Virus record (IMG/VR): IMGVR_UViG_3300009128_000136
Span: 1 to 23,241 of that record
DNA length: 23,241 bases
Strand: one strand, 5' to 3'
DNA from: a virus
Shown one piece after another: positions 1 to 21,994 of this stretch. The notes below the pieces were generated by a model. It did not search any database, was not told the origin of the DNA, and saw nothing but the letters and a program-made list of their open reading frames with translations. How positions within the stretch are numbered: the first letter of the stretch is position 1; each line of letters starts with the position of its first letter. Both the position numbers and the translations under genes were made by a program.

Positions 1-1146
1 CGGATACATAAGAAAATAGAACAGGTAAAAAAGCAAAGTATTCTTAATCTAAACTCACCCCAGCAACTTGTAGAATTGTTTTATTCAGTTATTAGATTTC
101 CCCCACAGACAGATAAACATACGGGGAATCCTACGGTTGGGAAAAAGGCTCGGGGGGTTTTACTTAAATACGATGATGAGCGGTACAAAGAAGGGGTTGA
201 GTTTATTCAACTGTTAGAAGATTATCAGCAGGTACAGACTATTGATAAAACTTTTGCGAGTAAGTGGCCTTCGTGGGTTCACGATGACGGGCTTATTCAC
301 CCGAATGTATTACAGCACGGTACTGTAACGGGTCGTCTTGCAATGCGTAATCCTAATTTACAAAATGTGCCAAGAAAAGTACAGGATACAGGTAGCGGTA
401 TAACTGCGTGGCAGTCAAGACATAACATTAAATCTTTATTCAAAAGTAAGTTTGACGGGGGTTTTATTGTTAATGCGGATTACTCACAGGTGGAACTTCG
501 GGTAATGGCTTCAATTGCGAACGATGAGATTATGGTAGATGCCTACAAAAATGGTAAAGATTTACATACAACAACGGCAAAACTATTACATCCAGACTTT
601 GACTCGGTTTCACGTGAGAGACAGGCCGCTTATAGGTATGAGGGTAAAACACATAACTTTGCTTCTGTGTATTCATTGAACAGAGAGTATTTAAATCTTT
701 ATCCTGACCTTGGTACTTGGGTGAACAGAACAATACGTAATGCGAAGAAAGACGGGTATACACAGAGTGCGTTTGGACGTAGACGTAGACTTCCTGAACT
801 TCTAAATATGCACACACTTGATACAAACAATAACAAGTTACGACAGGCAGTAAACTTTTGTATACAGGCAACAGCACACGAAATGTTAATGCGAGCCTTT
901 GTGAATGTGAACAAAGGTTTACGGGGAGCAGGATTAAAAAGCCACGTTGTCTTTGAAGTCCACGACTCATTGATTATTGACTGCCACCCTGCAGAGCTTG
1001 ACAAAGTCGCAAACCTGTTGTATATTTGGATGAGGGATACGGCAGGACTGGATTGGTTTGTTGTGCCATTAGAAATAGACATTGAATACGGAAAGGATTG
1101 GGCGAACTTGAAAAAATACAAAAATGAAAGGAGTACAAATGGGTAA
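1..1146 (+). CDS. Family A (PolA-type) DNA polymerase, 5' partial
   Basis: This is the replicative DNA polymerase; the frame is open from base 1, so the start and any exonuclease domain lie outside the window. A SPQQL segment near the left edge and TVTGRLAMRNPNLQNVP are typical of PolA proteins. Motif A is DYSQVELR, with the metal-binding Asp at 478-480. The O-helix (motif B) keeps Arg (634-636), Lys (646-648), Phe (658-660) and Tyr (670-672). Motif C is VHDS, with the catalytic Asp at 964-966, where most relatives have VHDE. After the O-helix the protein reaches the YPDL segment after only about 8 residues, where Taq and E. coli Pol I have roughly 25 more, so part of the fingers seems to be missing. 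The gene overlaps the next one by 8 bases. The family call is sure; how the short fingers affect activity is not known. Confidence 0.95.
   Translation, partial: RIHKKIEQVKKQSILNLNSPQQLVELFYSVIRFPPQTDKHTGNPTVGKKARGVLLKYDDERYKEGVEFIQLLEDYQQVQTIDKTFASKWPSWVHDDGLIHPNVLQHGTVTGRLAMRNPNLQNVPRKVQDTGSGITAWQSRHNIKSLFKSKFDGGFIVNADYSQVELRVMASIANDEIMVDAYKNGKDLHTTTAKLLHPDFDSVSRERQAAYRYEGKTHNFASVYSLNREYLNLYPDLGTWVNRTIRNAKKDGYTQSAFGRRRRLPELLNMHTLDTNNNKLRQAVNFCIQATAHEMLMRAFVNVNKGLRGAGLKSHVVFEVHDSLIIDCHPAELDKVANLLYIWMRDTAGLDWFVVPLEIDIEYGKDWANLKKYKNERSTNG
998..1026 (+). promoter_or_regulatory. Sigma-70 promoter inside the polymerase gene
   Basis: TTGACA at 998-1003 and TATATT at 1021-1026 are separated by exactly 17 bases. 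The site belongs to a family of six identical-geometry promoters in the window. It lies about 110 bases before the UvsY-like, ssDNA-binding protein and UvsX genes and would drive them. Confidence 0.7.
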
Positions 1147-1615
1147 TAATGTTTGGGGTCTGGTAGGTAGTAATACTATTACTGTAGACCTTGGTGGTGG
1201 CGAGGTTGTGTCGGTAGATATACAAGGGTATTCTGAAATAAGAAAATCTCTTGTTGAAGAAATGACAGAACTTCCAAGTATGTATGCGTATATTTATACA
1301 CTAAAGGCGAGAGCGCAGGAAAGGCTTGGGGAACTTAAAAATGCTTTGAAAGCGTTTGAGGGGGATAAGAAAAAAGACCACAGGGAAAGGATTGTAGAGT
1401 CCAAGGGGAAAGTAACAATTTCTGAAGTAGATGCTTCCGTTGACTCTGACCAAGAAGTTATTGTGGAAAGAGAGTACGTAGATAAGTATAATAGTATAGT
1501 GACTATACTCGGTGGTATTTTGTCCGCACTTTCTATCAAAAAATCAATGCTTAAACAATTAGCGGCTCACGAAAGATATAGTTTGTCAATGTACTCAAAC
1601 AATGAGGGGGAATAA
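1139..1615 (+). CDS. UvsY-like recombination mediator candidate
   Basis: The 158-residue protein starts at ATG 1139, 5 bases after GAAAGGAG, and overlaps the polymerase stop. An earlier in-frame ATG at 1124 lies before this ribosome binding site and is not preferred. The middle is a charged, probably helical segment rich in Lys and Glu (residues about 35-80). It is followed by an acidic stretch and a helix with the pattern YNSIVTILGGILSALSIKK, then MLKQLAAHER. T4 UvsY has the same layout: a basic helical part, then a hydrophobic helix ending in a basic patch. UvsY loads UvsX onto DNA covered with gp32. The gene stands directly before a gp32-like and a UvsX-like gene, which supports this role. 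Identity by sequence alone is weak, so this is mainly inference from order and architecture. Confidence 0.45.
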   Translation: MGNNVWGLVGSNTITVDLGGGEVVSVDIQGYSEIRKSLVEEMTELPSMYAYIYTLKARAQERLGELKNALKAFEGDKKKDHRERIVESKGKVTISEVDASVDSDQEVIVEREYVDKYNSIVTILGGILSALSIKKSMLKQLAAHERYSLSMYSNNEGE

Positions 1616-1616
1616 A

Positions 1617-2357
1617 ATGACAGATAACAACAGCAACTGGGATGCACTTATTAACAACCTTAAAGATGAAATGAGAAGTGAAGCAAGCTCTTCAAAGCAG
1701 GTGCTCACGTATCTTCGCTTCAAAGACGGGGACTCGGCTACAGTACGTTTCCTTCCCCCTGTGGGGGAATTGGACTCTGACAATACCCCGTTTAGAAAAC
1801 TTCTTACTCACTGGGGTCTTGGCGCAAATGGCAGGGAAAGAATTTACTGTCCGAAAACTTTCGGGGGTAATGATTGTCTTGTATGTCGTGCTGTGAGTGA
1901 GGCGTATGACAGTGGTGACGAAGACGAGATTACCTTTGCTCGTAGAACGAGAGCAAGAAGTTCTTATATGTTTCAGGCATATGTAAGAGAAACAGGTGAG
2001 ACTGTGCTGTGGGAAGTTTCCCATATGGTATATTCGAAGATACGGTCTTTCCTTACCAATACGCACTATGGCGCTCGTATCTTTGGTATTGATAATGGGT
2101 TTGATTTTGAAGTAACTCGAAAGGGCTCTGGACTTAACACTGATTATGAGCTTCTTGTAGTACCTCAGATGACCCCATTAGCGGACACCCCCGAAGAGGT
2201 CACTGCTATACTTAGTGGTAGAGTTGCTCTTAGTACCTTCTTCAAGAAGTATGATTTCACTTCTGAAGAGTTGAATGGTTTTATGGATGGTTCATTATCC
2301 CCCCACGAGACTCGCCTTGCGAAGTATTCAGCAGAAAACAATAACGATAGCGAGTAA
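1617..2357 (+). CDS. gp32-like single-stranded DNA-binding protein
   Basis: The 246-residue protein binds single-stranded DNA during replication and recombination. It has the zinc site of T4 gp32: His65, Cys78, Cys87 and Cys90, compared with His64, Cys77, Cys87 and Cys90 in T4. The N-terminal part (residues 1-30) is helical and charged, as expected for the cooperative-binding arm. The LTYLRFKDGDSATVRFLPP segment looks like an OB-fold entry strand. The C-terminus (SAENNNDSE) is short and only mildly acidic compared with the long acidic tail of T4 gp32. The start at 1617 follows GAGGGGG with a 6-base gap and lies one base after the previous stop. Its neighbours, UvsY-like and UvsX, are the partners expected for this protein. 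Confidence 0.88.
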   Translation: MTDNNSNWDALINNLKDEMRSEASSSKQVLTYLRFKDGDSATVRFLPPVGELDSDNTPFRKLLTHWGLGANGRERIYCPKTFGGNDCLVCRAVSEAYDSGDEDEITFARRTRARSSYMFQAYVRETGETVLWEVSHMVYSKIRSFLTNTHYGARIFGIDNGFDFEVTRKGSGLNTDYELLVVPQMTPLADTPEEVTAILSGRVALSTFFKKYDFTSEELNGFMDGSLSPHETRLAKYSAENNNDSE

Positions 2358-2359
2358 TA

Positions 2360-3430
2360 ATGTCGTTAACAAAAGCACTAAAAGATGCTCTCGGGGACTC
2401 TGTAAAACTTGGTTCTGACCTTGCAAAGTTTCAAGGGGAAAGAACTTGGTATTCTACTGGGTCTTTCTCTCTGGACAAAGCAATTCACCCCTCTGGTAGG
2501 GGAATACCAGGGGGGAATCTTGTAGAGTTTTTTGGAGACCCTTCTTCTGGTAAATCATTACTTGCACTGTATGTTCTGGCTTCTGCACAGGCACAGGGTG
2601 GTACAGGGGTTCTAATCAATACGGAAGGTGCTCTTGAAGCGTCTCTTGCAAAGCAAGTCAATCTAAACCTTGACGACCTTTTTATAGTGGAGTCAATGAC
2701 CTCAAAGAAGAAGGAAATACTCCCTGTGTATTTGAGTGATGTGTTTCACATCATTGAAGACATACAGGAGAAGGTACAAAAAATACACGGTAAAGACCAT
2801 CCACTTGTAATTGTGTGGGACTCACTCCCCGCGACGAATACGAAAAAGGATTTTGGTGGTGGTGCTTCAAGGGAAGGGTCAAAAGAATATAACCCTATTC
2901 CAGACCAAGGACTTAAAGCAAAAAACCTGAGACAGTGGCTACACAGACTTACTCCCCAGATAGGTGGGACAAACACACTGTTGATTATGATAAATCACGT
3001 AGTTGCAAAGATAGCTTCAAATCCTCACGTACACTATGCGAAATCGAAAGTAGCCCCGGGTGGTAGTGGACCAAAGTTTAATTCACATATTAGACTTGAG
3101 TTTACAAAGACAGGTGCGAAGTCTTCCTTTATTTTTGAAAAAGGTAAGGAAAAGTTTGCGCCTATTGGTGAGACCCTTCACGTTACCGTTGAAAAGAATA
3201 GGATATCCGCACCGTACCAAAAAGCAGATATTGACTTTTATTTTAAAAGGGAAGGCGGGGTACAGATAGACTACTATTCTGGATACTTAGAGCGGCTAAT
3301 AGCTTTAGATATAGTTGAAAACAAGGGCGGCTGGTTTAGTTTCAAAGATGAGGAAGGAAAAGAACATAAATTTAGAAAAGCCGACTTCTCAAAGACGATG
3401 GAAGAATACCCTTTCCTTCGTGAATTTTAA
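2360..3430 (+). CDS. UvsX/RecA-type recombinase
   Basis: The 356-residue ATPase should form filaments on single-stranded DNA and carry out strand exchange. Walker A is GDPSSGKS at residues 59-66. Glu89 in NTEGALEA matches the RecA catalytic glutamate, and Walker B is LVIVWDS at about 149-155. A later APGGSGPKF segment resembles the DNA-binding loop region of UvsX/RecA proteins. The C-terminal 90 residues (from FKREGG) look like the usual extension. The start at 2360 lies just after the previous stop, with no strong ribosome binding site, so translational coupling to the ssDNA-binding protein gene is likely. Length and motifs fit phage UvsX (about 390 in T4). Confidence 0.93.
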   Translation: MSLTKALKDALGDSVKLGSDLAKFQGERTWYSTGSFSLDKAIHPSGRGIPGGNLVEFFGDPSSGKSLLALYVLASAQAQGGTGVLINTEGALEASLAKQVNLNLDDLFIVESMTSKKKEILPVYLSDVFHIIEDIQEKVQKIHGKDHPLVIVWDSLPATNTKKDFGGGASREGSKEYNPIPDQGLKAKNLRQWLHRLTPQIGGTNTLLIMINHVVAKIASNPHVHYAKSKVAPGGSGPKFNSHIRLEFTKTGAKSSFIFEKGKEKFAPIGETLHVTVEKNRISAPYQKADIDFYFKREGGVQIDYYSGYLERLIALDIVENKGGWFSFKDEEGKEHKFRKADFSKTMEEYPFLREF

Positions 3431-3448: not shown

Positions 3449-4294
3449 ATGAAGAAAACAGTTGCCCTGATATCGGATATGCACTGCGGTCATATCTTTG
3501 GATTGTGCCCTGAACCGTATCAGATTAAAGAACCAAAGGATAAGGTAGGTTATCCTAATTTAGTAATGCTTAGTAAAGCACAGGCTGAAATGTGGGACAC
3601 TTACTTGTCTTTTGTAGAGCCCTTTAAGGGTGTTGACCTTCTGGTATGTGTCGGGGATATGCTTGACGGTACACAGAAACATAGTGAAGGTTCAGAGTTA
3701 ATTTCTCTTGCTTCAGACCCAGGTGTGCAAATAGATATGGCTGAACTTGCCATATCTCAATGGCAAGCAAAAGAAGAGTGGTACATCGCAGGTACTCCGT
3801 ACCATTCTGGCAAGCGGACAGACTGGGAAGAACGGCTCGCAAAGAAGCGTAGTATAGTTACAAATGCACACTTCTCTGGCGAGAATGTTTTTGCAATAAG
3901 AGACGACGATACTGGTAATTCTTTTAAGATACACGCAAAGCACCACGTCGGTGGGTCGGCTACTCTTTATGGACAAGCCTCCCAGACAGATAAAGAAAGA
4001 GCAAGTTATCTTGAAGCAAGTTATATTGGTGGGTTTCCACACGTCGATTTGTTTGTAAGAGGGCACGTGCACAAGTACTCTTATGTAGAGTCAATCGGAC
4101 CTGATGAACGAGTTACTGCGTCAATGACTCTCCCTGCGCTACAAGGACAATCAAAGTTTGGTATCAGACGTACAAAAACAAGAGTAGTACCTTTTGGGTT
4201 TGTTGTTCTTGTAATTGAAGACGGTAAGATTGTAGATAGAACAGTGAAGATAAAATATCTTCATTCAAGTATTCCGGAAGTATATACAGTATAG
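3449..4294 (+). CDS. Calcineurin-like metallophosphoesterase
   Basis: The 281-residue protein has the two-metal site of this superfamily: SDMH (Asp10, His12), VGDMLDG (Asp70), GTPYHSG (about 115-121), a His-rich IHAKHH stretch (162-166) and RGHVH (204-208). The start follows AAAGGAG. It is distinct from the SbcD-type nuclease 1 kb downstream, having no GNHD motif but a GTxxH motif instead. Proteins of this kind occur in phage recombination clusters, but their substrate is not settled; it could be a nuclease or a nucleotide phosphatase. The family is clear and the substrate is unknown. Confidence 0.85.
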   Translation: MKKTVALISDMHCGHIFGLCPEPYQIKEPKDKVGYPNLVMLSKAQAEMWDTYLSFVEPFKGVDLLVCVGDMLDGTQKHSEGSELISLASDPGVQIDMAELAISQWQAKEEWYIAGTPYHSGKRTDWEERLAKKRSIVTNAHFSGENVFAIRDDDTGNSFKIHAKHHVGGSATLYGQASQTDKERASYLEASYIGGFPHVDLFVRGHVHKYSYVESIGPDERVTASMTLPALQGQSKFGIRRTKTRVVPFGFVVLVIEDGKIVDRTVKIKYLHSSIPEVYTV

Positions 4295-4302
4295 GGGTTA
4301 AA

Positions 4303-4539
4303 ATGAAAAAAGAAAAAGAAACAATTGTAATACCAGACCTTGATGCTTTACTGGAAGAGTTGGATAGGTGTAAGTTTACTTCAGAAATTGAAGAAGTTCT
4401 TTTTGAGTATTACAATGAGTTTGCGAGTAGACGGGCTGTACCAAAACTTACTTTGTATATAAATGAAACATTTAACAGGGGGTTTACTCCCGACCAGATT
4501 GCCAGAAGAGCAAGAACTCTTGGACTTATATATGAATAA
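4303..4539 (+). CDS. Small hypothetical protein, possible helix-turn-helix
   Basis: The 78-residue protein starts 8 bases after the previous stop, with GGGG before the ATG. I do not recognise the family. It is acidic in the first half (LDALLEELDRC). It ends with FTPDQIARRARTLGLIYE, which could be a helix-turn-helix-like end, but this is only a pattern impression. It sits among recombination genes. Confidence 0.6.
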   Translation: MKKEKETIVIPDLDALLEELDRCKFTSEIEEVLFEYYNEFASRRAVPKLTLYINETFNRGFTPDQIARRARTLGLIYE

Positions 4540-4810
4540 AAAAACACAAGATACAGAACAATTTGTAGTTGAGATTTGGTTTCAAAACGGTAGTACGTAT
4601 GTATTTAAGACAGACTACTTATCAAAATCAGAATATAGAAGTTTAGTTGAGAGTGTATCAAATACAGATATCTCGTCGTTTACAGTGTCCGAAGAGGTCT
4701 TTGATGTACTTTACGACGGACGGAAAGTAAAAACTTTTATTACTGTAAAGAAAGACCAAGTTAATCTTGTAAAGATTTCACCAAAAAAGTTTGGAGAATA
4801 TAATGGGTAA
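4532..4810 (+). CDS. Small hypothetical protein
   Basis: The 92-residue protein has its start chosen at ATG 4532, which overlaps the previous stop as ATGAATAA. An in-frame ATG at 4463 would lie deep inside the upstream gene and is not preferred. Alternating hydrophobic segments (FVVEIWF, STYVFKTDYL, VKTFITVKK) suggest a small beta-rich domain. No family is recognised. It overlaps the histone-like gene by 8 bases, so the two are probably translated together. Confidence 0.6.
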   Translation: MNKKTQDTEQFVVEIWFQNGSTYVFKTDYLSKSEYRSLVESVSNTDISSFTVSEEVFDVLYDGRKVKTFITVKKDQVNLVKISPKKFGEYNG

Positions 4811-4979
4811 ACCTATCAATATGGTTAGAGAAAAGGTGGTGCGTGAGTTTGTGCCAGACCTTCAATTGTCAGATGAGTATGTTAAAGAACTTGAGCAGTA
4901 TATGAGAATGATTGTACTTCGGTCGGCAGACAGGTGTAGGAAGAACCAAAGAAAGCGGTTGCTGAAACAAGATGTATAA
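4803..4979 (+). CDS. Histone-fold-like small DNA-binding protein
   Basis: The 58-residue basic protein starts at ATG 4803, 6 bases after GGAG at 4793-4796. Its second half reads LSDEYVKELEQYM, then RSADRCRKN, then QRKRLLKQDV. This matches the pattern of small bacterial and archaeal histones: an S-D start of the long helix 2, an A-x-R-x3-N helix end, then the GRKT-like loop with Arg-Lys and a closing D-V/D-L. The Arg and Asp that form the histone RD clamp are both present (RK and QDV). The helix 2-to-end length (37 residues) fits the bacterial HBb-like type better than archaeal HMfB, where it is about 4 residues longer. Residues 1-20 would form helix 1. The likely role is DNA binding or compaction, as a dimer. 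This is a pattern match by eye; no structure prediction was made. Confidence 0.6.
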   Translation: MGKPINMVREKVVREFVPDLQLSDEYVKELEQYMRMIVLRSADRCRKNQRKRLLKQDV

Positions 4980-5355
4980 TAAAACAATAGATACAGAACG
5001 TAGGTTAGATGCTAAAGATTATCCTATAATAAGTTATTCTGCATTTAAGTCAGCAAGGAAAAAAGCAAAAAAGGGGAAGATAGGTATATTCCCCGTAAAA
5101 ATATTACTATGTAGGGGTAAAAATTATTCATCAAAACAAATTAAAGTGTGTTTTATTGTTATGTGTAATAGGATTAAAGTTTTACAGGAGTTTTGTGAGA
5201 CTTTTTCGTTTCCTTTAATGTTAATACAGAAAACTAAAAAACAAAGATACGGGTATTTTCACGTAGTGTTGTCTGGTTATCAGGCAAACAAAATGGTTAA
5301 ATTTTTGTTAGGGGAACTTGGTAGGTTTGGGAAGGGGTTGAGAGACTTCAAATGA
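4972..5355 (+). CDS. Basic hypothetical protein
   Basis: The 127-residue, lysine-rich protein starts inside the end of the histone-like gene (8-base overlap) and its stop shares ATGA with the SbcD-type gene. I do not recognise it. Its high basic content (KSARKKAKKGK, QKTKKQRYGY) suggests nucleic-acid contact, but there is no motif to prove it. Its overlaps on both sides tie it to the nuclease operon. Confidence 0.6.
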   Translation: MYNKTIDTERRLDAKDYPIISYSAFKSARKKAKKGKIGIFPVKILLCRGKNYSSKQIKVCFIVMCNRIKVLQEFCETFSFPLMLIQKTKKQRYGYFHVVLSGYQANKMVKFLLGELGRFGKGLRDFK

Positions 5356-6431
5356 AAGAACATTTTTTAGTAACTGCGGATTTACACTTTGATAATTACA
5401 AGTCTCTTGTACCTGCCGAAGTAGGTTCTATCAGTACTCGCTGTGAGGATGTTGGAAAAGTATTAGGCTCAATGAGAGAGTACGCAATAGAACACAATAT
5501 ACATAACGTCATTGTGCTTGGTGATATATTTCACTGGCAAAACAAGATTGAAGTCCCCGTGTTTAATTATGCGGTTAAACAGGTATCAAAGTTTGCGACA
5601 CACGACATTGATGTGTACCTACTTGCAGGGAACCACGACCAGACTACAAAAAGTGGTGTGACAAATAGTCTTGAGAGCCTTGGGAGAGAACGGGTACATA
5701 TAATAGATACACCTACAACACTTTTTGTGGGTAGTTATAACTGGGTTTTAGTTCCATTTTTACCTACACAAGAATATAGTAGTACGATTTTAAGTTTACT
5801 TGAGGGTCTGAAATTACAGCACACGAACAAACCAGTAATTTTGTTTACACACGTGGGTTTGGATGGTAGTCATTTAAACAACCAGACTATCGGACAGGAG
5901 AAGACAACGGTGTCTGATATACATACCGATAAGTTTGTTGCTGGATTTTTAGGACATTACCATAAGCCACAAAAGGTAAATAAAAATACTTGGTATGTTG
6001 GTGCTCCTCTTCAGCATAACTTTAATGATATTGAACAAGAACGTGGGTTTTGGGACGTAGCGTGTACGTACTCTTCTGGTTCTTATACCGCGGTACCTTC
6101 ACTCATACCCCTTGACAATTTGCCAAAGTTCCATTATATTAAGGTAGAAGATTTTGAAGACACCAATATACCAGAACAAGATTTTGTAAAACTTATAGGG
6201 GCAACACAAGAAGAGTTACGAAAATTTGCAGACAGTTTACAAGTAGTTGGTGCAAAAGAAATGAAGAGTTCTGAAGCTGTTCAGAGGGTTTCTATGAGTC
6301 TTGGTGAGACTTGGGGGTCTCTTATAGATAAATATGTAGACTATGTAGGTAAAAATCTAACCCCCAAAGAACGCCAAAAGTATAAAAAGATAGGTTTAAA
6401 GTTATTTACGGAAAGTGGCGAAGAAGAATGA
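5352..6431 (+). CDS. SbcD/Mre11 (T4 gp47-like) nuclease subunit
   Basis: This 359-residue subunit is the metallophosphoesterase half of a DNA end-processing nuclease. Motifs in order are ADLH (Asp10, His12), LGDIFHW (Asp58), AGNHD (Asn94-His95-Asp96), FTHVG (His167) and LGHYH (201-204), the complete metal-binding set. It overlaps its partner by ATGA, which is the usual arrangement of gp47 and gp46 or SbcD and SbcC. The complex resects DNA ends to make the single strands used by UvsX. A sigma-70-type promoter lies inside its 3' part at 6112-6140. Confidence 0.93.
   Translation: MKEHFLVTADLHFDNYKSLVPAEVGSISTRCEDVGKVLGSMREYAIEHNIHNVIVLGDIFHWQNKIEVPVFNYAVKQVSKFATHDIDVYLLAGNHDQTTKSGVTNSLESLGRERVHIIDTPTTLFVGSYNWVLVPFLPTQEYSSTILSLLEGLKLQHTNKPVILFTHVGLDGSHLNNQTIGQEKTTVSDIHTDKFVAGFLGHYHKPQKVNKNTWYVGAPLQHNFNDIEQERGFWDVACTYSSGSYTAVPSLIPLDNLPKFHYIKVEDFEDTNIPEQDFVKLIGATQEELRKFADSLQVVGAKEMKSSEAVQRVSMSLGETWGSLIDKYVDYVGKNLTPKERQKYKKIGLKLFTESGEEE
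6112..6140 (+). promoter_or_regulatory. Sigma-70 promoter inside the SbcD-type gene
   Basis: TTGACA at 6112-6117, a 17-base spacer, then TATATT at 6135-6140. It is preceded by CCCC, as are two other members of the family in this window. It lies about 290 bases before the SbcC-type gene. Confidence 0.65.
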
Positions 6432-8341
6432 AATTCAAACTAACAGCAAAAAACTTTATGGCTTTTGGAAAAGACAAAGTAGTTGTTGACTTCTCTACCC
6501 CAGGAATTACTTTGATTAGGGGGGATAACAAGACCTCAAAATCAAAGGTTTCAAATGGTGCGGGAAAAAGTACCATTTTGAAGGCTCTTCTTTTCGGGTT
6601 ATACGGGAAGCTTACCAAGGTTACAAAAGATAATTTGATTAACTCTGATGTTGGCAAAAACTGTACTGTTTCAGTAGAAATTACAAAAGAAGGTCACAAT
6701 GCAATAATCACAAGGAATATTAAACGTGATGACGGGGTAGATGGGACTACTTTTACAGTAGACGGTGTTGACTGTCGCGGGGGAACAGAACGAGAGACTC
6801 AACAAAACATTACTCAATTTGTCGGAATTAGTCGTGAGTCATTTATATCTTCCGTATTGTTTTCTGCGGGTGAACAGTTCTCTTTTTCGGGGGAAACCCC
6901 GGCGAATCAGGATACTATCTTAACAAAACTATTATGTCTCGGGGACCTTGAAGTTGCCCGGGTAAGGGCAAGAGAGAAAAAGAAAGAAGTTCAAGATACG
7001 ATTGATAAGCTTCACGGAGACATTTCTGGGGCCGTGCTTGTGGTTAAAGAGCTAAACTCTCAGTTAGGAGAAAACAAGTCTGTAATTGAGCGCTGGGAGG
7101 TTTCTCGGACAAATAGGGTAAATATGTTGGAACAGAAGTTAACTGTCCTTGAAACGACACACAGACAGGATAAAACTTCTCTGGACTCCTTATTAGAAAA
7201 AAAGTCTATACTTGAAGCAAAGTTTAATGAGTTGACACCAAAAGATATGCTTGAGCAAGATTATGAAAAGTTATTGAAAGACAAAGAACTTTTAAATAGT
7301 AAATTGAGTAGTCTTAAGCAGGAGATTGCAGTGGTGTCTGCGGGGCATAAAAAAATTACAGGTAAATTACAACTTGCACGGGGGATTTCAAAGGAAGCAA
7401 ACTGCCCTGCTTGTGGCACACATCTTACAGATGACGCTCTTTCTACCTATGTTACTGGGCTTTTAAGTGAGGAAGTCGAGAGTAACAAGATGTATGAAGA
7501 CTTAACAATACAGCAAGTTAAAATTAAAGAGCAGAAAATTTACAACAGCAACAAACTTGAACAAATAGATACTGTGTACCGTGAGTATGATTCCTATACT
7601 CGTAGTATAGAAAAAATTGAGCAGAAAGTTCCTGAGATTTATACACGACTTACCCAAATTAGTAAATACAGGGAAGATATTTCCGACGAAATTGATAGGG
7701 AACTGTCTCTTATACCCCCTTTAGACACAAGTCAAAAGAGCATTGAAGGAAAAATTAACACTTATACTACCCGGATTAAAAAAATTGAACAGAAAATAGA
7801 GAACGAGTATGAACCATACTTGTCTGTGTATGCCTTCTGGGAAGAGGGGTTTAGTAGTTCTGGTATACGTAATTTATTGATTGAAAGTATTTTACCAGAA
7901 TTAAATAGGATAGCACAGCAGTATTCGGAGACCTTGACAAATGGCGAATTGCGAGTTATATTTTCAGCACAGAGTGAAACTCAATCTGGGGTTGTGAAAA
8001 ATAAGATGACTGTTAATGTTTCTGATGTTTTTGGTAGTAATGATTACACTACGTCAAGTGGGGGGGAGCAGCGACGTATTGACCTTATTGTTAGTTTAGC
8101 CCTTCATAGTCTTGTTGCTTTACGACAGAATGTTGGTTTCTGTGTTATGGACGAGGTTTTTGTAAAGTTGGATGAGCGTGGTAGGCGAAAGGTGATGGAA
8201 TTGCTCCGACTGCTTTCGAGTAAAATTGAATCTATTTTTGTAATATCAAATCAAAGTGAAATTGAGTCTGAATTATTTGACCAAACTTGGGTCGTTGAGA
8301 GGGTAAATAAATCAAGTAAAATAATAAAGGAGTTTGTATGA
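6428..8341 (+). CDS. SbcC/Rad50 (T4 gp46-like) ATPase
   Basis: The 637-residue ABC-type ATPase works with the SbcD-type subunit. Walker A is NGAGKST (43-49), preceded by a short Lys/Ser-rich insertion after RGDN. Long coiled coils (about 180-320 and 345-460) flank a zinc hook CPAC (Cys327, Cys330). The ABC signature SSGGEQRR lies at 544-551 and Walker B CVMDE at 573-577. All parts of a Rad50-like machine are present, with shorter coiled coils than cellular SbcC (about 1000 residues), as in phage gp46. The 3' part contains a promoter at 7934-7962. Confidence 0.95.
   Translation: MKFKLTAKNFMAFGKDKVVVDFSTPGITLIRGDNKTSKSKVSNGAGKSTILKALLFGLYGKLTKVTKDNLINSDVGKNCTVSVEITKEGHNAIITRNIKRDDGVDGTTFTVDGVDCRGGTERETQQNITQFVGISRESFISSVLFSAGEQFSFSGETPANQDTILTKLLCLGDLEVARVRAREKKKEVQDTIDKLHGDISGAVLVVKELNSQLGENKSVIERWEVSRTNRVNMLEQKLTVLETTHRQDKTSLDSLLEKKSILEAKFNELTPKDMLEQDYEKLLKDKELLNSKLSSLKQEIAVVSAGHKKITGKLQLARGISKEANCPACGTHLTDDALSTYVTGLLSEEVESNKMYEDLTIQQVKIKEQKIYNSNKLEQIDTVYREYDSYTRSIEKIEQKVPEIYTRLTQISKYREDISDEIDRELSLIPPLDTSQKSIEGKINTYTTRIKKIEQKIENEYEPYLSVYAFWEEGFSSSGIRNLLIESILPELNRIAQQYSETLTNGELRVIFSAQSETQSGVVKNKMTVNVSDVFGSNDYTTSSGGEQRRIDLIVSLALHSLVALRQNVGFCVMDEVFVKLDERGRRKVMELLRLLSSKIESIFVISNQSEIESELFDQTWVVERVNKSSKIIKEFV
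7934..7962 (+). promoter_or_regulatory. Sigma-70 promoter inside the SbcC-type gene
   Basis: TTGACA at 7934-7939, a 17-base spacer and TATATT at 7957-7962. It has the same geometry as the other five promoters and would serve the genes from 8338 on, including the nuclease and the ribonucleotide reductase. Confidence 0.65.
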
Positions 8342-9347: not shown

Positions 9348-9587
9348 ATGAGATTAGAACAGATGCCTGAAATAAAGCAGAACATTGAGTCTGCTATTGA
9401 TAAAATAAACGAACTTACTGAAAGCAAGACTCCGCTTAAATTTGAATGGAAGATTGAAGTTAACTATGACGACCTTTCTATTGATGTTCGTATTTTCCCA
9501 AAATATAAAGAAGTCGTTGAGACTACTAAATACGGGATTGAGGGAGAGCAGGGTACTTACCTGTTATCCAACCACGACGACGAGTAG
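9348..9587 (+). CDS. Small acidic hypothetical protein
   Basis: The 79-residue protein has a good AAAGGA ribosome binding site. It has an N-terminal helix (EIKQNIESAIDKINELTE), then a strand-rich part (FEWKIEVNYDDLSIDVRIF) and an acidic end. No family is recognised. It lies 7 bases before the ribonucleotide reductase start. Confidence 0.6.
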   Translation: MRLEQMPEIKQNIESAIDKINELTESKTPLKFEWKIEVNYDDLSIDVRIFPKYKEVVETTKYGIEGEQGTYLLSNHDDE

Positions 9588-9594
9588 GTGTTTT

Positions 9595-11562
9595 ATGAGT
9601 TACATAGACACGCCAATGCGTTCTTTCTACTTATCCGATAAGTTTTTAGAGCAATATAAAGGAAAGCAACCCGACTGGGGGGAACTTGGTCGTGTTACAT
9701 ATCTCCGTACTTATTCTCGGTATCTCCCTGAAGAAAACAGAAAAGAAGAATTTTGGGAGACTCTTAAACGTGTAGTTGAAGGGTCTTTCAACCTACAGAA
9801 AAGACATTGTGCTATTTTGCATATACCTTGGGACAATGCTAAGGCACAGAGACGTGCACGGGGTATGTATGACAAGATGTGGAACTTTCGGTTCTTACCT
9901 TCTGGAAGAGCTTTGTGGCTTATGGGGACAGAATTTGTGGAGAAACACGGGTCTGCTGGATTAAACTCGTGTGCTTTTACTACTACAGCAAACATAGACG
10001 AATACCCTACAGACCCGTTTACTTGGGCAATGGGGGCTTCTATGTTAGGTCTTGGTGTAGGATACGACACAAAGGGTGCGGGACTGATAAGAATACAGGG
10101 GTGCGAGAAAAGTAAAAGTGGTATCTTCCTTATTGATGACTCAAGAGAGGGTTGGGTACTATCCCTTGAAGTGTTGTTAAATGCTTATCTTAAGGGCGAA
10201 ACACTTCCAAGATTCGATTACACACTTATAAGACCTGCGGGAAAACTTCTAAAAAACTTTGGGGGCATTTCGGCGGGCTCTGCCCCTTTAAAGTTAATGC
10301 ACAAAGAACTAATTGAACTTTTTGAGTCCCGTGTAGGAGAGGTAATTTCTTCTGTGGATATCACAGATATCTTTACAACAATAGCAAAATGTATTGTAAG
10401 TGGGAATATCAGGAGGAGTGCGATGCTTGCTCTGGGGGATTTCAACGATGATGGCTTCCTTGTAATGAAGCAAGACCTGAATAATCTAAAAAACAGGTGG
10501 GCGGCTAATATATCTGTTGTAGTACAAAATGGGTTTGACTACAAAAAGGCGGCCGAATTGTTTTTAAATAATGGAGAACCTGGGCTTATCTGGTTAGAGA
10601 ATATACGAAATTATGGTAGGACGGCTGACGGGTTTAATCCAATAGATATACGTGCTGATGGTGTAAACCCTTGCTCGGAACAAAGTTTGGAGTCTGGGGA
10701 AATCTGTAATCTTGTAGAAACCTTCCCCAGTAAACACGACAGCTACAAGGAGTATGAAGAAACTTTATTTTATGCCTTGCTGTTTGGCAAGAGTGTTACA
10801 CTACTTGACACCCATTGGGCTAAAACCAATGCTGTAATGCTTCGTAACAGGAGATTAGGTATTTCTCAGTCTGGTATTATAGATGCGTTTGTAAAACACG
10901 GTAAAAAGAATATGAGAGAGTGGTGTGATAAAGGATATAAGTTTTTACGGAAAGCCGATGAAGAAGTCTCCGATGCTCTTTGTATTCGTACCTCTATAAA
11001 GCTAACGAGTGTGAAGCCGAGTGGGACTATAAGTTTATTACCCGGGGTTTCTTCTGGTATACATTTTCCACATAGTAAATATTATATAAGAAGAATTAGA
11101 TTTGCTGAGAACTCTTCATTGTTACCCGCCTTGGAAGATGCCGGTTACTTTATTGAAGAAGATAAGTACTCAAACAATACTGTCGTTGTGGAGTTCCCTG
11201 TGAAAACAGTAAACTATGATAGGGCAAAAGATGAAGTAACTATCTGGGAGCAGTTATCAAATGCGGCGATGTACCAAAAATACTGGGCAGACAATCAAGT
11301 TAGTATTACAGTCACCGTCTGTGAAGAAGAAAAAGACCAAGTTGTTGTAGCATTGGAGACGTTTGAAGACCAGTTAAAAGCCGTGTCTTTTTTACCTTTA
11401 ACAGAACACGGGTATGTACAAGCACCTTATGAGGCAATAACGGAGAAAAGGTATCTTGAAATGAAATCAAAAATATCAAAGGTAAAGTTTACTGGTGTTG
11501 TTGATATTGCTGACGGTGAACAATTCTGTACAAATGACTCTTGTACACTTGACGTAAAATAG
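9595..11562 (+). CDS. Adenosylcobalamin-dependent ribonucleoside-triphosphate reductase (class II, monomeric)
   Basis: The 655-residue enzyme reduces ribonucleotides to make DNA precursors, using coenzyme B12. It resembles Lactobacillus leichmannii RTPR (739 residues). The chosen start is ATG 9595 after AGGTG; upstream in-frame starts lie inside the previous gene. The active site NPCSEQ gives Asn358, the thiyl-radical Cys360 and Glu362. Redox Cys371 lies 11 residues later, the same gap as C408-C419 in RTPR, and the partner Cys126 is in GLNSC. The C-terminal dithiol FCTNDSC (Cys645, Cys650) has the RTPR spacing. All five cysteines are therefore kept. No small subunit is needed, but the host must supply B12. 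The TYLRTYSRYLPEENR start and LPSGRALW motif also fit this family. Confidence 0.95.
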   Translation: MSYIDTPMRSFYLSDKFLEQYKGKQPDWGELGRVTYLRTYSRYLPEENRKEEFWETLKRVVEGSFNLQKRHCAILHIPWDNAKAQRRARGMYDKMWNFRFLPSGRALWLMGTEFVEKHGSAGLNSCAFTTTANIDEYPTDPFTWAMGASMLGLGVGYDTKGAGLIRIQGCEKSKSGIFLIDDSREGWVLSLEVLLNAYLKGETLPRFDYTLIRPAGKLLKNFGGISAGSAPLKLMHKELIELFESRVGEVISSVDITDIFTTIAKCIVSGNIRRSAMLALGDFNDDGFLVMKQDLNNLKNRWAANISVVVQNGFDYKKAAELFLNNGEPGLIWLENIRNYGRTADGFNPIDIRADGVNPCSEQSLESGEICNLVETFPSKHDSYKEYEETLFYALLFGKSVTLLDTHWAKTNAVMLRNRRLGISQSGIIDAFVKHGKKNMREWCDKGYKFLRKADEEVSDALCIRTSIKLTSVKPSGTISLLPGVSSGIHFPHSKYYIRRIRFAENSSLLPALEDAGYFIEEDKYSNNTVVVEFPVKTVNYDRAKDEVTIWEQLSNAAMYQKYWADNQVSITVTVCEEEKDQVVVALETFEDQLKAVSFLPLTEHGYVQAPYEAITEKRYLEMKSKISKVKFTGVVDIADGEQFCTNDSCTLDVK

Positions 11563-12412: not shown

Positions 12413-12749
12413 AAATATAGACATAGAAGAAATAGATGAACGGACAGATGAACAAAAGGTACTTGACAAACAGGCAGAGTTTGAGTATAATCGGGAAAGA
12501 CTTCGGGACTTTGCAAAGCCGAACTGTCATAAGTGTTATGGTACAGGTAGACTTGGTTTCATCAACACCGAAGATGGTGGTAAGGTTGCTATACTTTGTA
12601 CTGCAAAAGGTTGTGCTCTTCATCAGGTACAAATTACACGCCGCTTAATGCAGAAAGAAGAGTCAAGAAGAAAAGCAGAAGAACGTGAAAATAGGAAGAA
12701 AGAGCGAGAAGAAAGGCAGGTAGATACTGATGAAAAAGAAAATACTTAA
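12405..12749 (+). CDS. DnaJ-type zinc-finger protein
   Basis: The 114-residue protein starts at ATG 12405 after AGGAGG and overlaps the sigma-factor stop by 8 bases. Residues 41-48 read CHKCYGTG, the CxxCxGxG repeat of the DnaJ cysteine-rich domain. A second pair, Cys65 and Cys70, could complete one zinc site. The tail (about 85-114) is very rich in Glu, Arg and Lys and is probably a charged helix. There is no J domain, so it is not a full DnaJ. A role in binding proteins or nucleic acid is possible but not shown. A perfect sigma-70-type promoter lies inside it. Confidence 0.7.
   Translation: MGKNIDIEEIDERTDEQKVLDKQAEFEYNRERLRDFAKPNCHKCYGTGRLGFINTEDGGKVAILCTAKGCALHQVQITRRLMQKEESRRKAEERENRKKEREERQVDTDEKENT
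12463..12491 (+). promoter_or_regulatory. Consensus sigma-70 promoter before the packaging genes
   Basis: TTGACA at 12463-12468 and TATAAT at 12486-12491 with a 17-base spacer are a perfect consensus promoter. CGGG follows, as in the two intergenic promoters near 17.2 and 17.7 kb. It lies inside the zinc-finger gene and about 240 bases before the HIRAN, terminase and portal genes. Confidence 0.8.
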
Positions 12750-13161
12750 AGTTCTTTTTGGTGGTGGTAGTATTAAATTCTCAATAACTGGGACTACTTT
12801 CCCCTGCTATAATGGTGACTTTATTGAAAGGCAGGAAGTTCTTGCCTATGTAAAGCGGACTACAGATGAAGGAAAGACACTCCCACTTGTATTTGTAAAA
12901 GAACCCGATAACAAATACGACACAAATGCTATTCGTGTTGAATTAACTGACAAATCAGATATTGGTTATATTCCCCAGAAAGATGTTACAGTTTCTTTTT
13001 TATCAAGGGAAGGGAAAGCAGTATCACATACAGTATCTTGCCTTGGTTTAAATAGTATACTTCAACAAGTATCTATCACGGGAGAGTTGCTTCGTGTTAC
13101 TGGTGGCGTAGACGGACTTTCCCGTGGTGGTGTTGTCCGAGTTTGGTTGCAAGAATGGTAG
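12730..13161 (+). CDS. HIRAN-domain protein
   Basis: The 143-residue protein is almost entirely a HIRAN domain: GTTFPCYNGDF, then EPDNKYDTNAIRV at residues 58-70 and IGYIP at 78-82. In the HLTF helicase this domain binds the 3' end of single-stranded DNA at stalled forks; here it stands alone with no helicase part. The start overlaps the previous gene by 20 bases. It could protect or recognise DNA ends during replication or packaging, but this is inference from the domain only. Confidence 0.85.
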   Translation: MKKKILKVLFGGGSIKFSITGTTFPCYNGDFIERQEVLAYVKRTTDEGKTLPLVFVKEPDNKYDTNAIRVELTDKSDIGYIPQKDVTVSFLSREGKAVSHTVSCLGLNSILQQVSITGELLRVTGGVDGLSRGGVVRVWLQEW

Positions 13162-18039: not shown

Positions 18040-18217
18040 AATGTATACTGCTTTTGTGTGGTGGAAGAACGGCGATACCGAAGAGATAGATGTATACGGC
18101 GAAAATAAAACTGACGCTCACAGTAGAGTTGAAATTATACTTAATTGTGACTATGAAATAGACTGGGAAATTGTTGAAATAAGAGAACAACCCCCGGGAT
18201 TTTTGGGGGAGTTATAA
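18029..18217 (+). CDS. Small hypothetical protein
   Basis: The 62-residue acidic protein starts after AAAGGGGGG. It shows a strand-helix-strand pattern (YTAFVWWKNGDTEEIDVYG, then DAHSRVEIILN, then WEIVEIREQ). No family is named with confidence. Its stop overlaps the RlpA-like start by one base (TAATG), so the two are probably translationally coupled. Confidence 0.6.
   Translation: MSPKMYTAFVWWKNGDTEEIDVYGENKTDAHSRVEIILNCDYEIDWEIVEIREQPPGFLGEL
18191..18209 (+). promoter_or_regulatory. Small hairpin over the RlpA-like ribosome binding site
   Basis: CCCCC at 18191-18195 can pair with GGGGG at 18205-18209, which is the ribosome binding site of the RlpA-like gene starting at 18217. The stem is short (5 GC pairs, 9-base loop). 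It could keep translation low until ribosomes of the upstream gene open it. Confidence 0.3.
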
Positions 18218-18594
18218 TGATAGTAAGTCTTATATTTTCTCTCCTATTCTCTCTGGGTCAGGGTCAATCAGGGGCTTGTACTGTTAGTTGGTACGGCGGA
18301 TACTTCCACGGCAGGTTAACAGCCTGCGGTGAAGTCTATGATATGAATGAGTTGAGTTGTGCCCACAAGGAACTCCCTATGGGTACAATTGTACAATTTT
18401 ATTACCCTGAAACAGAGCGGGGGCTGACACTCATAGTAAATGATAGGGGTCCGTATATAGATGGACGAGACTTTGATTTTTCACGAGCTGCATTTGACTC
18501 CTTGTTTAAAGACCTCGATATTGGTGTTGCTCATAATGTTTCGTATGTAGTGGTGGGTAGAGAAATACGACCCACAATGAGATATAATTTATAG
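18217..18594 (+). CDS. RlpA-like lytic transglycosylase domain, exported
   Basis: The 125-residue protein has an N-terminal hydrophobic stretch (SLIFSLLFSLG) followed by a small polar region, which reads as a signal peptide. The rest is an RlpA double-psi beta-barrel: VSWYGGYFHGRLTACGE, VYD, CAHKELPMGT, NDRGPYIDGRDFDFSRAAF. The Glu, Asp, His and Asp residues of the RlpA active-site cleft (GE-x2-D, AHK, NDRGP) are all kept. There is no SPOR domain. Pseudomonas RlpA cuts glycan strands that have lost their peptides. The amidase encoded 690 bases downstream would make such strands, so both may serve lysis. The domain call is sure; the role in lysis is inferred. Confidence 0.88.
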   Translation: MIVSLIFSLLFSLGQGQSGACTVSWYGGYFHGRLTACGEVYDMNELSCAHKELPMGTIVQFYYPETERGLTLIVNDRGPYIDGRDFDFSRAAFDSLFKDLDIGVAHNVSYVVVGREIRPTMRYNL

Positions 18595-19281: not shown

Positions 19282-19782
19282 ATGCGAAAAATTAACAAAG
19301 TAGTTATCCACCACACAGAGTCAAGGGGCGGGGATAAAGAGTTTATTAGATATCTTCACGTAGATAGGAATGGTTGGTCTGATATTGGTTATCACTACAT
19401 CATTACCAATGGCAAGATGAATGGTAGTTGGGAAGCAGGTAAAGACGGCGAAGTACAAATAGGTAGGCCCATTGAGAAAATGGGGGCTCACGCAAGAGGT
19501 TCAAACAAGGGTACTATGGGAATAAGTCTTGTAGGTACTTTTATGGTAGATAAACCTACACCGAAGCAGATGTCAAGCCTTGTGAACTTTCTTGCGGACT
19601 TTTGTGTCAAATTTGACTTAGACCCGCTACGGGACATTGTAGGGCACAGGGACGTGGGCAGTACAGACTGCCCCGGAGATAATCTATACGAACAAATGCC
19701 TACTATTAGGGCGATTGTTTACGGAATTATTCGCCACTTACAAGAGAGAAGAAAAAGTATAAAAGTAAAGGAAGAGGACTGA
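19282..19782 (+). CDS. N-acetylmuramoyl-L-alanine amidase (endolysin)
   Basis: The 166-residue protein is an amidase_2 (T7 lysozyme-like) enzyme that cuts the bond between muramic acid and L-Ala of peptidoglycan. Zinc ligands are His10 or His11 (VVIHHTES), His122 (VGHRD) and Cys130 (TDCPG). GYHYII at 37-42 gives the usual Tyr. The T7 residue Lys128 is Thr here, as in many relatives. There is no signal peptide, so it should need a holin or other help to reach the wall. The C-terminal 25 residues are basic and charged (HLQERRKSIKVKEED). Confidence 0.93.
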   Translation: MRKINKVVIHHTESRGGDKEFIRYLHVDRNGWSDIGYHYIITNGKMNGSWEAGKDGEVQIGRPIEKMGAHARGSNKGTMGISLVGTFMVDKPTPKQMSSLVNFLADFCVKFDLDPLRDIVGHRDVGSTDCPGDNLYEQMPTIRAIVYGIIRHLQERRKSIKVKEED

Positions 19783-21355: not shown

Positions 21356-21994
21356 TTGAAAGACGGAAAGTTTATAAGGAATAAAAAGTTTTATACAGGA
21401 ATTGTGTATGAGTGGAACCTACCTGCCGGACATACCTGCCCTTTTGCAACAGAGTGTAAGACGAGTGTTAATAGGGAGACGGGAAAGTTTACAAAAGCAA
21501 AAGGATACTTTAGTTGTTATGCCGCAAGAAGTGAGCGCTTTCCTGTTGTAAGAGAGCACAGGTGGGATAACTTTAATCTTGTTAGAAATGGTGGTACCCC
21601 TATAATTCCAAAGAAAGCAAAACATATACGCATTCACGCAAGTGGTGATTTTTACTCTCAAGAGTATTTTGATATGTGGTTGCAAATAGCAAAGGACAAT
21701 CCCTGTATTCGCTTCTGGGCGTTCACAAAATCTATACAGTTCTGGTTAAACAGAAGAGACTCGATTCCTCGGAACTTCATACTAACAGCAAGTTACGGCG
21801 GGAAGTACGACGACTTGATAGAGAAGTATAACTTAAAAAGTGCTCGTGTCTATTCAAGTGAACAAGACATACCAAAGGGTATGCCAATAGATACTAATGA
21901 CGATTATGCAAGAATACCGAATGTTTGCTTTGCACTGCTTGATAATAATAAAGTAAAGAAACAAAAGCAAAATCTTATTAAAGATGCAATTTAA
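21356..21994 (+). CDS. Gp88-like phage protein
   Basis: The 212-residue protein starts at TTG 21356, 6 bases after AAGGAGG. An N-terminal NLPAGHTCPFATEC, then SCYAAR (Cys28, Cys34, Cys54), and HASGDFYSQEYFDMW at 94-108 followed by FWAFTKS match the family first named for mycobacteriophage gene product 88. The cysteines may hold a metal. No activity is established. The TTG start is unusual beside the ATG starts of most neighbours, but there is no better choice. Confidence 0.75.
   Translation: MKDGKFIRNKKFYTGIVYEWNLPAGHTCPFATECKTSVNRETGKFTKAKGYFSCYAARSERFPVVREHRWDNFNLVRNGGTPIIPKKAKHIRIHASGDFYSQEYFDMWLQIAKDNPCIRFWAFTKSIQFWLNRRDSIPRNFILTASYGGKYDDLIEKYNLKSARVYSSEQDIPKGMPIDTNDDYARIPNVCFALLDNNKVKKQKQNLIKDAI

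Follow-up and report, generated by a model that had tools for sequence, protein, structure and literature searches.

The window analyzed here, the whole 23,241-base virus record, is that of a tailed phage by its gene content, and midway in its uvsX–sbcD–sbcC operon lies a 58-codon ORF. This raises the question of whether a phage encodes a histone of its own, to which class that histone belongs and what it would do among recombination genes. An earlier note, made from the letters alone, had read the ORF as an HBb-like bacterial histone gene between those for UvsX and SbcD. The location was correct, as the gene starts 1.4 kb past uvsX with one small gene between it and sbcD (Table 1). Further genes in the window encode a PDDEXK nuclease, a terminase, and a portal protein, while no tRNA genes were found in its 23,241 nt.

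Table 1. Coordinates of the histone gene and of neighboring and diagnostic features in the window.
Feature	Position	Strand	Evidence or remark
Family A DNA polymerase, truncated at the window's start	76..1146	+	family match
gp32-like ssDNA-binding protein	1602..2357	+	PF08804 E 6e-11
UvsX/RecA-type recombinase	2360..3430	+	PF00154 E 2e-27
Gene 5' of histone gene, no family match	4463..4810	+	overlaps histone gene 8 bp
Shine-Dalgarno-like TTGGAGA run, 5' of histone ATG	4790..4796	+	sequence
FtF-type alpha3 histone gene	4803..4979	+	ATG start, 58 aa
Gene 3' of histone gene, 127 aa, no family match	4972..5355	+	overlaps histone gene 8 bp
SbcD/gp47-like nuclease	5352..6431	+	Metallophos match
SbcC/gp46-like ATPase	6428..8341	+	AAA_23, SbcC_Walker_B
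RlpA-like DPBB lytic transglycosylase	18217..18594	+	PF03330
N-acetylmuramoyl-L-alanine amidase/endolysin	19282..19782	+	PF01510

The ORF is a real, well-placed coding gene. A Shine-Dalgarno-like GGAG stands 7 nt upstream of its ATG, and the 8 bp shared with the genes on both sides (stop at 4810 and ATG at 4972) form a coupled-operon arrangement. If the upstream gene starts at an inner ATG at 4532, it would likewise share 8 bp with the gene preceding it. The in-frame codon log-odds is +0.117, where in-frame 58-codon pieces of trusted genes range from 0.09 to 0.48 and all out-of-frame pieces lie below it, with a maximum of 0.02. The encoded protein is basic (pI 9.8, net charge about +4.5).

Neither Pfam nor PHROGs matched the 58-aa protein, and the nucleosomal archaeal and eukaryotic histone families (PF00808, PF00125) gave no match at E values up to 10. 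An unaided search of PDB sequences returned only four matches, all weak, two of which are histone folds (HTkC and NF-YB). The top match was HTkC, the crystallized face-to-face (FtF) histone of Thermococcus kodakarensis, which aligned without gaps. Reference alpha3 histones were therefore taken from both domains: 30 archaeal FtF proteins of the phylum to which a Pacearchaeota genome belongs, Thermococcus HTkC relatives, and, on the bacterial side, HBb-type proteins together with FtF proteins of a Bdellovibrio-like phylum. An archaeal FtF profile of 33 alpha3 histones, built without the 58-aa protein, gave it 30.4 bits, with E 2.2e-11 when it was searched as one sequence. Of 20,000 shuffles of the protein, the highest-scoring reached 13.6 bits, and among the 251 window ORFs the protein had an E value of 9e-9, with the next best ORF at 3.2 bits. 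A stricter FtF profile, which leaves out one relative fetched with the help of the 58-aa protein and all NQR members, still gave 26.8 bits (E 2.9e-10). The bacterial FtF profile (ten proteins) scored 14.5 bits, and the HBb-type profile 2.5 bits, which is below the best shuffles. The profile search against prokaryotic histone families proposed in the earlier note thus finds the protein, and the helix-2, loop, and RK...D pattern that had drawn attention to it is genuine and stands far above chance.

AlphaFold2 run on the sequence alone (pLDDT 83) gave alpha1 and one long alpha2 helix with no loop-2 break, and Foldseek found no match to this model. When the alignment held ten histone relatives, of which viral contigs supplied four, the pLDDT was 92.5 and the model took an alpha3-truncated histone fold (alpha1 10-16, alpha2 24-47, one-turn alpha3 55-57), in line with the alpha3 of 3-4 residues and the shortened alpha2 that mark that superfamily. 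The best Foldseek match of the aligned model was HTkC (TM 0.86, rmsd 1.1, 28% identity), followed by HLp (TM 0.83) and HBb (TM 0.81-0.84), and all 50 of the 50 matches listed are histone folds. In VIA-align, alpha3 histones reached Z 7.2-7.8, and no other histone fold exceeded 5.8. The structure prediction, for which the earlier note had named a fold other than the histone fold as the refuting outcome, is thus a histone fold in this one-chain model; because the histone alignment leans AlphaFold2 towards such a fold, the independent weight rests on the profile search. Together, profile search and structure comparison bear out the histone identity, and the assignment of both fold and FtF class is well supported.

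The residues that separate the classes agree with this assignment. In the numbering of the class profile, the dimer-dimer interface of the FtF tetramer is built by R48 and N52, and HBb-type dimers are without them (PMC11390915, PMC12701072). The 58-aa protein has both, as R44 and N48, at positions -6 and -2 from the anchor Arg. Position -6 is R in 30 of 30 archaeal FtF proteins and either R (12/20) or K (8/20) in bacterial ones, and position -2 is N in 29 of 30 and 20 of 20, giving R/K in 50/50 and N in 49/50 FtF proteins overall; among HBb-type sequences both counts are 0/24, with S/A and D in these places. Also present is the R50–D57 clamp, in register with the RxTxxxxD motif, and the protein ends one residue past D57, like HTkC, HLp, and D4GZE0; in D4GZE0 this C-terminal position bears the carboxylate pairing with the -6 Arg. 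The loop-2 Thr of the motif, found in all 74 FtF and HBb reference sequences, is R52 here, and Arg occurs there in none of them. By profile alignment, only the strongest of the alpha1 lysines (profile position 16) is kept, as the conservative change R14, and the other lysine positions hold E10, V12, and P18. Basic residues of alpha1 and loop 2 are R9, K11, R14, K51, and R52. Because R44/N48, R50/D57, and the C-terminus are kept while the Thr and most alpha1 lysines are lost, the protein is, judged by its residues, FtF-like with an apparently altered DNA face. The class named in the earlier note therefore holds only in part: the short alpha3, as opposed to the archaeal nucleosomal length, was seen correctly, but the HBb-like form is not supported, given an HBb-type score of 2.5 against an FtF score of 30.4 bits and FtF-like class-separating residues.

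FtF histones occur in archaea and in several bacterial groups (Schwab et al. 2024, PMC11390915), and 20 were found here in a Bdellovibrio-like phylum. HTkC (59 aa, PDB 9F2C) resembles the phage protein in length, matching C-terminus, R at -6, and R anchor, but it is an archaeal chromosomal protein with E in place of N48, T in place of R52, and far more alpha1 lysines. HLp of Leptospira perolatii (PDB 9QT0-9QT2), which wraps about 60 bp (Hu et al. 2025, PMC12701072) and whose family has been put forward as the principal chromosomal protein in Leptospira, is similar in fold (Z 7.8), in its end one residue past the Asp, and in R49/N53/R55/D62, numbered as in that paper and corresponding to R44/N48/R50/D57; it differs by its own N-terminal tail, T57, and K15/K17/K21. 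Searching PDB sequences with HTkC or HBb as query did not return HLp itself. HBb (Bd0055, PDB 8FVX/8CMP) shares the fold, the truncated alpha3, and RK...D, but not the tetramer residues. What Schwab et al. (2024, PMC11390915) define as “phage histones” (A0A2E7QIQ9) are likewise alpha3 histone folds in tailed-phage genomes, but they carry a C-terminal tetramerization helix and lack the RxTxxxD motif, whereas the 58-aa protein stops without any C-terminal extension and retains R50/D57 together with the FtF residues. A search of the openly accessible literature turned up no description of a phage FtF histone.

At least three further viral contigs carry FtF-type histones, a lower bound since the exact-pattern scans over 2.9 million viral contigs miss diverged members. 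L086 (7974-8168; FtF profile 76.9 bits) lies on a 63.9-kb contig with a tail sheath and an SLT transglycosylase. L087 (846-1106; 40.1 bits) encodes an 86-aa phage histone with a non-basic N-terminal tail of about 30 residues, on a contig that also has a DNA methyltransferase and an SLT transglycosylase, and was missed by both Pfam and PHROGs. L085 (7995-8348; 69.3/66.9 bits) encodes two FtF-type folds fused into a 117-aa doublet, on a contig with membrane proteins, an ATPase, and no bacterial-phage marker seen, and is possibly from an archaeal virus. These three are of the same class by profile, and L086 and L087 are on tailed-phage-like contigs, but their gene neighborhoods differ from that of the 58-aa protein and they keep the Thr. 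The L086 histone gene is covered by a 500-aa antisense ORF, which longest-ORF calling would favor.

No close ortholog of the 58-aa protein was found in the viral contig scan or by tblastn against 50,697 phage records, where queries with this protein, an archaeal FtF protein, L086, and L087 gave nothing convincing. Weak tblastn matches in the cultured phages Tonenili and GR11A fall within an approximately 250-aa protein and a GTP cyclohydrolase and were due to chance, a match in PM2 spans 25 residues, and L089 met a search pattern by chance within what is a large non-histone protein. Used singly as queries against viral contigs, the histone, SbcD, and UvsX likewise gave no relatives. In the tree, most forks of which are unresolved, the 58-aa protein has a very long branch of 2.78 changes per site and no resolved placement; its nearest row is L025, and because the pattern that retrieved L025 incorporated the 58-aa sequence itself, this closeness is biased. 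The viral FtF histones are scattered with no common group, a picture that fits one acquisition as well as several.

The host of the virus is very likely bacterial, because two peptidoglycan enzymes, an RlpA-like transglycosylase and an amidase, are encoded. An archaeal virus was dropped as a candidate on account of these peptidoglycan hydrolases and the PolA-type polymerase.

We consider it probable that the 58-aa protein is a phage nucleoid protein, an FtF alpha3 histone whose tetramer would wrap phage DNA during recombination-dependent replication. Two chains would form a histone handshake dimer, and two dimers would join face to face via R44/N48/R50 and the C-terminus to make a ring-like tetramer; by analogy with HLp, about 50-60 bp of phage dsDNA may wrap around it. 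The backbone contacts of the lost Thr and alpha1 lysines could be taken over by R52 and K51 in loop 2. Through translational coupling to the recombination genes, the histone would be on hand while phage DNA is copied by recombination, and, made along with UvsX and the gp32-like and SbcCD-like proteins, it may compact and shield the replicating or recombining DNA. The tetramer could also restrain nucleases and shape the substrate on which UvsX and SbcCD act. Compaction, guarding of DNA ends, and a change of host chromatin had been put forward in the earlier note as candidate roles.

The same protein might instead be aimed at the host, joining or competing with the FtF or other alpha3 histones of a histone-bearing bacterium and disturbing its chromatin or transcription. 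The presence of FtF histones in several bacterial groups would provide such targets, and the kept tetramer residues make mixed tetramers conceivable, but the gene lies among phage DNA-metabolism genes and not in a host-takeover stretch, and alpha2 is strongly diverged, which makes this reading unlikely. Somewhat less likely still is a histone fold kept in a small regulatory protein or in a subunit partnering, for instance, the transcription machinery or the SbcCD-like complex, with no architectural part in wrapping DNA. The altered DNA-contact positions and the tight packing between two small no-match genes and sbcD would fit such a part; against it stand the net positive charge and the basic alpha1 and loop 2, and we know of no tie between alpha3 histones and SbcCD. 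A dimeric HBb-like histone that bends or sheaths DNA, as the earlier note had it, would be in keeping with the shared alpha3-truncated fold and the TM values to HBb structures, but it is very unlikely given a profile score under the best shuffles and two FtF-specific residues seen in no HBb-type sequence. A chance likeness to histones in an unrelated small helical protein, as the missing Pfam and PHROG matches and the unbroken single-sequence model might suggest, is highly improbable in view of a full-length, collinear match with signature residues that scores far over all shuffles and window ORFs, and Pfam misses even the clear phage relative L087.

A broader suggestion can be put forward tentatively, namely that phages carry their own DNA-wrapping FtF histones and that at least one of them genetically couples a “phage chromatin” protein to the recombination-dependent replication machinery (UvsX, gp32-like, SbcCD-like). 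Replicating phage DNA would then be chromatinized, and recombination would act on histone-wrapped DNA. To our knowledge, the phage histones described so far are of another type, predicted to bridge DNA. A 58-residue histone of the FtF type, which in Leptospira wraps DNA, offers, in a phage recombination operon, a small, easily expressed test of phage DNA chromatinization, and viruses with FtF genes are a possible vehicle for histone movement between archaea and bacteria.

Several other genes in the window deserve mention. A second metallophosphoesterase gene (3449-4294) directly follows uvsX, in addition to the SbcD-like one at 5352. A B12-dependent (class II) ribonucleotide reductase is encoded at 9442-11562, and a scan of viral contigs with it returned L002 (51% identity) and L003 (28%); the gene surroundings in L002 differ from those in the window. 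A stand-alone HIRAN-domain protein (PF08797) is encoded at 12730-13161, a domain usually fused to helicases that recognize DNA ends or stalled forks, and a Gp88 family protein (PF17338) at 21356-21994.
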